From: Synechocystis sp. PCC 7509
GTDB taxonomy: Bacteria > Cyanobacteriota > Cyanobacteriia > Cyanobacteriales > Chroococcidiopsidaceae
Direction: 5' to 3'
Assembly: GCF_000332075.2 (NCBI RefSeq)
Contig: NZ_ALVU02000001.1
Location: 2,368,324 to 2,432,323 of the forward strand
Length of the DNA stretch: 64,000 nt
Shown in pieces: positions 12,960-46,626 of this stretch. Within the stretch, counting starts at the first letter, position 1. Every line of letters starts with the position of its first letter. The translations under genes and the position numbers were made by a program. The notes under the pieces are model-generated. The model saw only the letters and a list, made by a program, of their open reading frames with translations, searched no databases and was not told the origin of the DNA.

Positions 12960-14260
12960 ATGATGTTGTACCGCAGGTACTACGGGTAGAGGAGATAGAT
13001 GAAGAATTGCCAATCTATGTTATAATATTATCACCAATAGACAATATTGATAATGTATCGAGCTTACAAGTTTAGATTGTATCCAACTAACGAACAAAAA
13101 ACAGCCTTAGCGAAAAGCTTTGGCTGTTGTCGTTGGTATTACAATTACTCTCTAAATCTGTGTCAAGAGACTTACAAGTTGTCTGGTAAAAGTTTATCTA
13201 GAGGTGCTTTACAAGGTTTATTACCTAGCCTTAAAAAAGAATATGTTTGGTTAAGCGATGCTTATTCACAATGCTTGCAGTATGTGGCACTTAATCTGTC
13301 TACAGCCTACAAAAATTTCTTTGACAAAAAAGCAGGGTTTCCTAAGTTCAAGTCAAGGCATGGTAGGCAATCAATTAGTTATCCTTCTAACGTAAAGTTG
13401 GAGGATGATTATATATTGATGCCGGGTAAAGTTGGAAAGATTTACTGCCAGCAAGAGCGAAAGTTTGACGGAATAATCAAGACTGTTACAGTCTCTCTTA
13501 ATCCCGATGGTAAATACTTTGCAGCAATTTTAGTTGACGATGGAAAAGAAAACCCAACACTTTCTAGCGAGGGAAAAGCGGTAGGAATTGACTTAGGATT
13601 AACTCACTTTTGTATTACCAGCAATGGTAGTAAATTCGACAATCCTCGTCATCATAGAAAACACGCCCATAACCTCAAAAAGAAACAACAAAGTCTTGCA
13701 CGCAAACAAAAAGGTAGTAATACTAGGCTTAAAGCCAAAAAGCTAGTAGCCAAAATTCATTCAAAAATCAAAAGAGTTAGAGAAGATTTTTTACACAAGC
13801 TATCCCGCAAGATAGTAAACGAAAACCAAGTTGTTGCCGTAGAAAATCTCAATGTTAAAGGTATGGTACGAAACCATAATTTAGCTAAAGCTATTAGTGA
13901 CTGTGGATGGGGTCAATTTTGTACCATGCTCAAATACAAGTGCCAGTGGGACGGAAAAACCTATATTGAAGTAGACAGGTTTTTCGCTTCTTCTAAAACT
14001 TGTAATGTTTGCCTCAATAAAATAGGTAGTTTGGCGTTAGATGTGAGATCGTGGGATTGTGCTAAGTGCAAAACTCATCACGACAGAGACATAAATGCTG
14101 CTCTCAATATCAGAAATGAAGCCTTGCGGATATTGTCGTTAGGAACTAGCGACACAGCCAATGGAGGGAATGTAAGTCAACCTGGTAAAACTTCGGTTTT
14201 GTTAGATGCTGTTCCCCGTGAAGTTGGAAACCCCACCCCTCTTTAGGGTGGGGTAGTTCA
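12960..14260 (+). mobile_element. Solo tnpB element of the IS200/IS605 superfamily
   Basis: A transposon carrying tnpB but no tnpA, inserted between the dihydroorotase-like gene and lepB. Its right side ends with a strong hairpin, CCCCACCC (14231-14238) and GGGTGGGG (14246-14253), that overlaps the tnpB stop codon. GTAGTTCA follows and runs into the lepB stop. This subterminal hairpin is the usual right-end signature. The left end is imprecise; CTATCT (12951-12956 region) and AGATAG arms flank the upstream segment. The element must rely on TnpA supplied in trans or be immobile. Confidence 0.7.
13053..14246 (+). CDS. tnpB: TnpB RNA-guided nuclease (IS200/IS605-type)
   Basis: A 397-residue TnpB starting at ATG 13053, whose opening MYRAYKFRLYPT is typical. 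The RuvC-like catalytic acids are all present: Asp180 (IDLGLTHF), Glu264 (VAVENLNVKGM) and Asp346 (HHDRDINAALNI). The zinc ribbon CNVC...CAKC (317-339) is intact. TnpB proteins are omega-RNA-guided DNA nucleases that cut target sites next to a short motif and help retain the transposon. The omega-RNA is expected to derive from the 3' end of this gene and the hairpin after it. A TTG two codons upstream is a less likely start. Confidence 0.92.
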   Translation: MYRAYKFRLYPTNEQKTALAKSFGCCRWYYNYSLNLCQETYKLSGKSLSRGALQGLLPSLKKEYVWLSDAYSQCLQYVALNLSTAYKNFFDKKAGFPKFKSRHGRQSISYPSNVKLEDDYILMPGKVGKIYCQQERKFDGIIKTVTVSLNPDGKYFAAILVDDGKENPTLSSEGKAVGIDLGLTHFCITSNGSKFDNPRHHRKHAHNLKKKQQSLARKQKGSNTRLKAKKLVAKIHSKIKRVREDFLHKLSRKIVNENQVVAVENLNVKGMVRNHNLAKAISDCGWGQFCTMLKYKCQWDGKTYIEVDRFFASSKTCNVCLNKIGSLALDVRSWDCAKCKTHHDRDINAALNIRNEALRILSLGTSDTANGGNVSQPGKTSVLLDAVPREVGNPTPL

Positions 14261-35411: not shown

Positions 35412-35460
35412 GTTTATCTCACCTCCTTAAATAAAACATTGCTGTCCCCATAGAAAATCA

Positions 35461-35590
35461 AAAACCCGACAGATTCTGCCGGGTAACGAAGTCATATTTT
35501 CGATGCCATACTCTTTTTATAGAGCGATCGCATTTCCAAATACAAACCTCGGCAGGATATTAAGCGTAATCGCTCCTGCGGTCTTCGGCT
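35461..35590 (-). promoter_or_regulatory. L10 leader RNA with intrinsic attenuator
   Basis: On the minus strand, between rplA and rplJ, CCGCAGGAGCG pairs with the CCTGC region, and the characteristic CTTAATATCCTGCCGAGG segment follows (35547-35588). This is the pattern of the bacterial L10 leader. Further downstream CCCGGCA and TGTCGGG (35465-35483) form a hairpin followed by TTTTTG, an intrinsic terminator ahead of rplJ. The L10(L12)4 complex is known to bind such leaders for feedback control. Confidence 0.8.
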
Positions 35591-35626
35591 TTTGCTATGA
35601 AGTTTTTGAGCTTTGTTTTCTTTGGT

Positions 35627-45538: not shown

Positions 45539-45919
45539 ATAAAAGCTAACTCTATCTGTTTAATTTTCCGCAGAATCTAAATTATCTTCAGGAAAAACAA
45601 CATCTTCATACACCAAGGAAATTGGGCAATGAAAATCAACACTTTGTAGCTGAATTTCCATTTCTATGCCGTTTGTGCCTGTTTCTTCAGGTATATAAGG
45701 GCTTAATTCCCATATTCCTTGTTGATTTCGGCGGTAGCACTCCACAGCCATTCTATCTACGTCCACTAAGACGTATTCTTTTAAGCTGTCAATCCGACGA
45801 TAATTGCTAAATTTTCGTCCCCGATCGAAGGCTTCGGTACTGGGGGAGAGAACTTCCATAATTAAGATTGGGTGATAGATTATTTTACGGGCGGTGCGAT
45901 CGCTTTGGTCGCAAGTTAC

Positions 45920-46256
45920 CGGAAAAATGGGTCTAAAGCCCCGTTGCTTCAGCACGGCTTTATATTTTCTTTGATTTTTATATTCTCCAATGTGCTATAA
46001 TATACATACCGCCTAACCGACGGGCAACTTGACTCAACCGAACACGTCCTAGTAGCGTGGTGTCCGGGCAAACGTTGTATACGGTGTAGTACCGATGGGC
46101 AGTCGGGAATCGAAAGTGTCTGGGCAATCAGATCGCCGGGGATGTGTAGTTTTTGCATATCTAGGTAGTGGGTGAAACACCAGTAATGGAAATAACCAGA
46201 AAAATCTAAATCGTGAGGTTTGGAAGCTCCGCACCTTCAGGTCGGAGAGATGTCAC
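45920..46256 (+). mobile_element. 337-bp IS200/IS605-type non-autonomous element keeping a tnpB 3' end / omega-RNA-like region
   Basis: The left boundary directly follows TTAC (45916-45919), the known insertion tetranucleotide of IS608-type elements. The right boundary follows GTCAC (46252-46256), with a one-base ambiguity. A left hairpin uses AAAGCC (45935-45940) and GGCTTT (45956-45961). A right hairpin uses CTCCG..ACCT (46227-46236) and AGGT-CGGAG (46239-46247). Near the right end one plus-strand frame reads ETPVMEIT, then a stop, then GSSAPSGRRDVT, which resembles degenerate TnpB C-termini. No transposase or TnpB ORF remains. Confidence 0.82.
45971..46001 (+). promoter_or_regulatory. Extended -10 promoter inside the 337-bp element
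   Basis: TGCTATAAT at 45993-46001 is a consensus extended -10. TTGATT at 45971-45976 is a possible -35 with a long 19-bp spacing. It points right, so it would transcribe the omega-RNA-like part and the right hairpin into the Uma2 gene in antisense. Confidence 0.6.
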
Positions 46257-46626
46257 CATCACATCTGGATAATGAAAGGGTCCATTTTGAGAAATTCCTA
46301 CTTTAGCATCTGCCATAAAGACTTTACAGCCAGAACCCCGCAGGTGATTTTTTAGTGCAGAGGTGAGGTTTATAGCAATGGAGTTATGGGGTAAAATTCC
46401 CCCAGTCATAGCAAAGACTTCTCCATTTATATATTCATACTTAGGCGGCTGTAATTCTTCCCATGCCAAATACTCTGAAGGAGTCATCAATTGGGGATGT
46501 CTTTGAGCAATCATCAATAATTTATCCTTTTAAAAAAATTGACAAACTAATACCTTTAGTTTGTCATCAAAATAAAATTCAATTAAAGCGATCGCCTGCA
46601 ATTGACTTACTCTCCAATTAATATAT

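Follow-up and report, generated by a model that had tools for sequence, protein, structure and literature searches.

A tnpB-less IS200/IS605-type element of Synechocystis sp. PCC 7509 that probably encodes a stand-alone guide RNA

The window, i.e. the whole stretch of 64,000 nucleotides of the Synechocystis sp. PCC 7509 genome analysed here (contig NZ_ALVU02000001.1), contains a gene of the Uma2 family on the minus strand (45560..46517) divided into two halves (46257-46517 and 45560-45919) by a 337-bp sequence located at 45920..46256 of the plus strand. In a Pfam search the frames flanking this sequence, which as used extend 36-51 bases into it, matched PF05685 at profile positions 2-80 and 78-155. 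When joined, the flanks (313 bp) could be aligned to uninterrupted genes from six relatives with 70-78% identity and no gap where they meet; the best of these homologues, aligned over the 313 bp, comes from a genome of the same genus. As Uma2 is a gene family, the uninterrupted homologues may be paralogues. The element thus has an exact empty site, shows no target duplication and is situated 3′ of a fixed short motif; its orientation is antisense to the interrupted gene. The gapless junction and the Uma2 matches on both sides bear out the initial annotation, which had set the boundaries by the interrupted gene and had proposed that excision rebuilds its frame.

There are three 337-bp copies in the genome, two of them identical and the third differing from these at element position 68 only, as well as a further, identical 78-bp right-end fragment (L004). 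The tetranucleotide TTAC, which had been pointed out as the left flank of the window copy, precedes all three copies, while the right flank is different in each. No tnpA or tnpB is present within the element; the earlier description of it as having no ORF therefore holds for transposon proteins but not in general, since a 69-aa ATG frame is present on the minus strand. Related full elements and TnpA do exist in the same genome. Three tnpB-bearing elements share both ends with the window element, as had been anticipated: the left ends are 83-89% identical over 70 bp, and the right 169-170 bp of the element resembles (71-76%) the 3′-end of tnpB together with the right end of these elements.

The TTAC motif (45916..45919, plus strand, as are all features that follow) corresponds to the left cleavage site of TnpA, CL, and presumably to the target-adjacent motif (TAM) of a TnpB complex; the latter role is taken from what passages of PMC8612924 state on ISDra2. 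The left guide tetranucleotide GL (AAAG, 45935..45938) is located at the foot of the left-end hairpin (45934..45962), an exact inverted repeat (45934-45940/45956-45962) in an end common to the tnpB elements. At the other end we found the right guide GR (GAAG, 46223..46226), paired with the cleavage site CR (TCAC, 46253..46256), and between them the right-end hairpin (46227..46247). Of the two terminal hairpins claimed initially, the left one is therefore an exact repeat, whereas the right one is helix 7 of a consensus structure described below (84% of cells paired); the search that detected the left hairpin listed no exact inverted repeat of 7 bases or longer at the right end.

Base 1 of GL is complementary to base 2 of CL, and base 4 to base 4, in 38 of 38 distinct left ends fitting the search pattern, several of which are copies of one element, so that the 38 ends are not independent. 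The observed CL/GL pairs were TTAT/AAAA (17), TTAC/AAAG (12), TCAT/GAAA (6), TGAC/CAAG (1), TCAC/GAAG (1) and TCCT/GAAA (1); CL had the form T-N-A-Y in 37 of the 38. The count derives from 52 pattern matches, 14 of them being second registers of the same ends; we retained the register in which the cleavage site immediately precedes the element, which biases the count towards the pairing rule, and the pattern fixed the third guide base as A. Among right ends of 13 other elements, chosen by hand, we saw GAAT/TCAA in 12 and GAAG/TCAC in one. Subterminal hairpins with guide tetranucleotides pairing to the cleavage sites, as in all 38 left ends, place the element in the IS200/IS605 family. Given this end anatomy, the covariation of guides with cleavage sites and the two Y1 TnpA genes found in the genome, transposition by TnpA acting in trans is a well-founded prediction.

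The right part of the element, 46089..46256, was compared with related sequences. An alignment of 19 scaffolds produced a consensus structure of 35 pairs with 95% of cells paired; 27 of the 35 pairs change on both sides over the 19 sequences, a number reached in none of 500 shuffles, and the covariation exceeds that of all six slid controls. As this consensus includes the window sequence, a separate covariance model was built from 17 related sequences, with the window element and its copies excluded. The model matched 46089-46256 over all 163 positions (147.2 bits, E=2.9e-36), with no second match in the 64 kb window at E up to 1; model position 163 falls on 46256, the last base of the element. 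All 35 consensus pairs can form in the window sequence. When it is compared with each of seven tnpB-linked relatives, 8-14 pairs differ on both sides and all stay paired, while identity to the tnpB-linked scaffolds of the same genome is 66-73%. Folded alone, the window sequence has an unremarkable energy compared with shuffles (z -1.26), and the value for L068, an element discussed below, is modest (z -2.22).

The covariance search that had been proposed has thus given a full-length match with a model excluding the element, and the suspected likeness of its 3′-end to an omega-RNA is far beyond chance. With this out-of-sample match and double changes at pairs that are all retained, the right part is, as judged from comparative sequence data, an omega-RNA (reRNA) scaffold whose last base is that of the transposon. 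The adjacent flank, CATCACATCTGGATAA (46257..46272), would supply a 16-nt guide, as indicated by its position and by the guide length of ISDra2; as the right flanks of the three copies differ, each copy would have a different guide. The right part had also been described as resembling a degenerate TnpB C-terminus. This resemblance is real (TDGQSGIESV..., closed after 25 codons), but the RNA is not simply a decayed tnpB end, since the scaffold groups with tnpB-less scaffolds and is preceded by an extra 5′ domain.

In a scan of the window with Rfam gathering scores, no family reached its threshold on the element. Permissive scans, with E up to 10 for the element and 1, 5 or 0.1 for selected relatives (a selection that leaves L172 and L173 aside), returned nothing near a gathering score on these RNAs. 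Two matches to sot0042, a sense-overlapping transcript RNA, both on the scaffold (window 46114-46248, E=7.5; L054 1732-1785, E=0.94), and one to Pseudomonadales-1 (L056 751-898, E=2.5) were taken as chance. A covariance model of HEARO, the IscB RNA, is present in Rfam; HEARO was absent among the matches listed at these same limits. Elsewhere in the window an ordinary Ribosomal protein L10 leader (35450-35606, minus strand) scored above its gathering threshold.

Scaffolds matching the covariance model were observed in at least 206 of 291 genomes of the order Cyanobacteriales; such genome counts are lower bounds, because filtering was stricter in the large scans and 9 or 15 candidates were scored for each genome. 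For a phylogeny we used 103 scaffolds: the matches listed at 115.9 bits or more, including only one of the three copies of the window element, and a further two elements from a BLAST search with the upstream domain A (see below). By tblastn of the upstream sequence, 57 of the 103 have a full tnpB, 14 a partial one and 30 none, with 2 at contig ends. Absence of tnpB means here a match shorter than 100 nt in the upstream sequence at hand, which was mostly 1.3-3 kb long and 550-900 nt in five of the 30 (L047, L048, L049, L061 and L176). The maximum-likelihood tree, rooted at midpoint and of limited resolution (128 columns for 103 rows), contained a group of 23 members with support 100/97 that includes the window element, its nearest neighbours being L054 and L155 (94/71). 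In this group 22 members have no detected tnpB and one, L159, is tnpB-bearing; the remaining eight tnpB-less rows are placed among tnpB-bearing ones. In L159 (G168:C326) the tnpB stop codon lies a short way into the omega-RNA, so that most of the scaffold does not overlap with coding sequence.

Of the 21 group members that could be anchored, 20 have a tnpB frame that closes by codon 26 (in the exception, L176, it runs to codon 68), while in 52 of 57 tnpB-bearing elements it is open to codon 37-50. Nonetheless, an alignment of 18 of the 22 tnpB-less members (left out were L153 and L167, whose scaffold rows in the tree are identical, L168 and L176) shows changes on both sides in 20 of its 29 predicted pairs, and all 18 aligned scaffolds have as their last bases TCAC, which is presumably the right cleavage site. 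Variability by codon position is nearly flat in both groups. As the frame is closed and the pairs still covary, coding in the tnpB frame cannot explain the conservation of the scaffold. The sequence comparison, the reading frames in particular, shows that the element belongs with tnpB-less elements in which the RNA evolves independently of the tnpB frame. It does not look like a mere remnant of a deletion; the age of the tnpB-less lineage is an inference.

Upstream of the scaffold the element carries an extended -10 promoter element, TGC-TATAAT (45993..46001), with an RNA start predicted near 46008. Of the promoter named in the initial annotation this part stands; however, it has no -35 element, and a -35/-10 scan of the element gave no plus-strand promoter. 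Of the 22 tnpB-less group members, 12 have an exact TATAAT in the 330 nt upstream of the scaffold, where base shuffles predict 3.45 such members, and the other 10 lack it. With an excess of TATAAT but no -35/-10 promoter, we regard transcription from the element as plausible. A second element of the same genome that has no tnpB match (L013 1462-1853, G000:C1:4041214-4041605) has the same 32-bp promoter region as the window element and a different interior; its flank is TGAC with guide CAAG, and its right end is GAAT/TCAA.

Between the promoter and the scaffold there is a conserved 5′ RNA module, which we call domain A (46004..46088). It has no counterpart in the tnpB elements of the same genome, whose BLAST matches cover the two ends only. 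Domain A is uncommon, with true BLAST matches in three of 386 genomes including its own: G437, with two elements of another family (90% identity over 82 bases), and G046 (92% over 37), the latter in an element that has also the domain M described below. A match in G032 came in addition to these three genomes. A pattern of the domain-A core matched records of Picosynechococcus sp. PCC 7117, Tolypothrix (two) and Kastovskya; the core is conserved in the Kastovskya and Picosynechococcus records and is almost invariant in a six-sequence alignment. Two loci, L065 and L066, match domain A over 22 bases in what we read as an apparently unrelated gene; these matches were discarded. In the Tolypothrix pair L064 and L068 (matched alike by records L070 and L071) domain A is joined to a scaffold of the tnpB side, and in the window element to a scaffold of the tnpB-less group. 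The presence of one domain on two different scaffold types suggests that modules have probably been recombined between omega-RNA scaffolds.

Other group members have different 5′ sequences, which we labelled B-E by eye. Many members contain a middle domain, M, in which 13 of the 15 pairs show double changes; in the window element domain M is absent, the only match in the window being elsewhere and at chance level (E=0.68). Domain M was detected in at least 134 of 281 genomes of the order, with up to at least 15 matches per genome. Of the best 30 M loci, 16 also have a match to the scaffold (E up to 0.01), and those inspected among them look, by eye, protein-free with hairpins at both ends. The same genome has its own domain-M match (L241, G000:C1:1199931-1199999); it has TGTGCTATAAT upstream, and its end hairpins differ from those of the window element. 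Further different upstream sequences (D and E, labelled by eye) were seen in L172, L173, L177 and L058, which have no tnpB match.

The genome of Synechocystis sp. PCC 7509 contains 16 TnpB-domain matches, 14 of them in frames of at least 395 aa. In one host TnpB (L010) we found three OrfB/TnpB Pfam domains; it matches the solved TnpB chains 8bf8 and 8h1j (E=2.4e-22), which we take to be ISDra2 TnpB. The TnpB family PF07282 was found in all 17 relatives examined: 15 with group members, the domain-A pair genome G437 and the domain-A/M genome G046. Still, a tnpB-linked scaffold within the score range examined was found in only 7 of 16 genomes with group members, and no close one within that range in the other nine; a different TnpB, or another effector, may therefore serve these genomes. 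The supply of TnpB is the weakest link of the explanation given below. Within the window itself a TnpB zinc-domain match at about 13908-14111 (G000:C1:2382231-2382434) has an open frame of 401 aa and is a possible trans source of the nuclease. Five TnpB loci of the genome (G000:C1 1550228, 2040225, 2558283, 2933137 and 3955057) have identical scaffold and domain scores, which suggests a recently amplified IS605 orfB element.

We consider it likely, given these comparisons, that we are dealing with a non-autonomous IS200/IS605 element that encodes a stand-alone guide RNA, with TnpA and probably TnpB acting in trans. The reading of the initial annotation, a MITE bearing a guide RNA, is thereby supported by the copies, the tnpB relatives with matching ends, the two TnpA genes and the covariance match; as the element groups with RNA-only elements, nuclease and transposase are probably borrowed from relatives. 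A Y1 TnpA made elsewhere would recognise the two end hairpins and cut after TTAC and after the terminal TCAC, and the element would move as single-stranded DNA. A transcript of ~265 nt, started at the internal -10 element, would include domain A, the omega-RNA scaffold and the right end and would continue into the flank; the first ~16 nt of the flank would become the guide.

Passages of PMC8612924 describe such an RNA for ISDra2, where TnpB binds a right-end RNA of ~150 nt with the last ~16 nt coming from the flank and cuts next to the left cleavage motif of TnpA; the authors suggest that this cutting restores the element after excision. By the same model, the TnpB of a tnpB-bearing relative would bind the RNA of the window element and cut TTAC followed by the guide sequence. 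The target TTAC-CATCACATCTGGATAA is the window copy's own empty site after excision, so repair from a sister copy would restore the element. It would thus exploit TnpA and the TnpB retention system, both in trans.

Other explanations should be weighed against this one. The element could be a passive palindrome-associated transposable element (PATE), an internal deletion derivative moved by TnpA in trans, with its omega-RNA segment an unused leftover; we find this quite unlikely. A leftover would not be expected to have its structure kept by compensatory changes with the tnpB frame closed, nor to have gained a 5′ domain conserved across families, and TnpA needs only the end hairpins. Recent deletions do seem to exist, as L047-L049 look like such products, L049 retaining by eye an apparent tnpB start, and their scaffolds are among the tnpB-bearing ones in the tree. 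PATEs formed by core deletion are known from passages of PMC3119063, and one PATE of Halanaerobium retains the 3′-end of tnpB and the right end according to passages of PMC7290912. Somewhat less improbable, yet still on the unlikely side, is that the RNA acts without cutting by TnpB, as a decoy of TnpB, as a regulator or as a partner of some other effector that reads domains A-E or M. The extra structured domains, with the double changes and the wide occurrence of M, would suit such a role, as would the nine of 16 genomes with no close tnpB-linked scaffold in the score range examined. At the same time, the uniform TCAC end of the 18 aligned scaffolds is what a guide RNA of TnpB requires: by ending at the presumed right cleavage site, each copy would obtain its own guide.

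That the element is an IStron-like self-splicing element removing itself from transcripts is very improbable. The joined flanks do restore the reading frame, and PMC4227781 describes IStrons as group I introns joined with insertion sequences. Yet no group I intron match was listed in the Rfam scans of the element and the scanned relatives, and a match to group II D1-D4 (E=8.4) is at chance level, so that neither intron type has a match above chance in these sequences. Also, the window copy is antisense to the interrupted gene; splicing of its own strand could not rescue the Uma2 gene.

Returning to a stand-alone guide RNA as the preferred reading, we would tentatively extend it, at slightly less than an even chance, to a large undescribed superfamily of protein-free IS200/IS605-type guide-RNA parasites in cyanobacteria, hijacking TnpB and TnpA for retention and spread. 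Their multi-domain RNAs would consist of variable 5′ domains A-E, a conserved domain M and the omega-RNA core, with modules exchanged as indicated by domain A joined to two different cores; the window element would be a compact member with domain A plus core. A guide-RNA lineage that moves without a nuclease gene would show that RNA-guided retention is open to parasitism, as the transposase is by MITEs. It raises the question of one TnpB serving many unlinked RNA genes, a possible step toward trans-encoded guides as in CRISPR-Cas12. In addition, compact RNA-guided tools may benefit from the new structured domains.

Usually, the guide RNA of a TnpB is described as originating from the transcript of the tnpB element itself. 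In literature searches, as far as titles and abstract openings tell, we found no tnpB-less omega-RNA elements of cyanobacteria, nor are there any in passages of PMC11448079, PMC10711439 and PMC12558985. Protein-free IS605 palindromic elements as such are already known (passages of PMC3119063 and PMC7290912).

Several known systems are close to the window element. The omega-RNAs of HEARO/IscB and the stand-alone omega-RNAs mentioned for OMEGA systems combine IS605-type ends with a guide-bearing non-coding RNA, sometimes without a protein gene. The guide of HEARO is at the 5′-end, whereas in the window element, which has no HEARO match in the Rfam scans, the guide would be at the 3′-end. The omega-RNA (reRNA) of IS200/IS605 TnpB, with ISDra2 as prototype, is another such system, and the window scaffold is homologous to scaffolds overlapping tnpB in the same genome; the differences are that the window element has no tnpB, has its own -10 promoter element and an extra 5′ domain, and has the tnpB frame closed. 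With IS608, as given in passages of PMC5934647, it shares identical GL AAAG and CL TTAC, and the IS608 pair GR GAAT/CR TCAA is found in related elements; unlike IS608, the right end is GAAG/TCAC and there is no tnpA inside. To IS605-type PATEs, which are too short for a transposase, have near-terminal palindromes and make no target duplication (passages of PMC3119063) and which are often moved by a transposase in trans (passages of PMC7290912), the element is similar in size, in its near-terminal palindromes and in the lack of target duplication. Where these passages on PATEs speak of no guide RNA, the interior of the window element is made of a structurally constrained scaffold and a new RNA domain.
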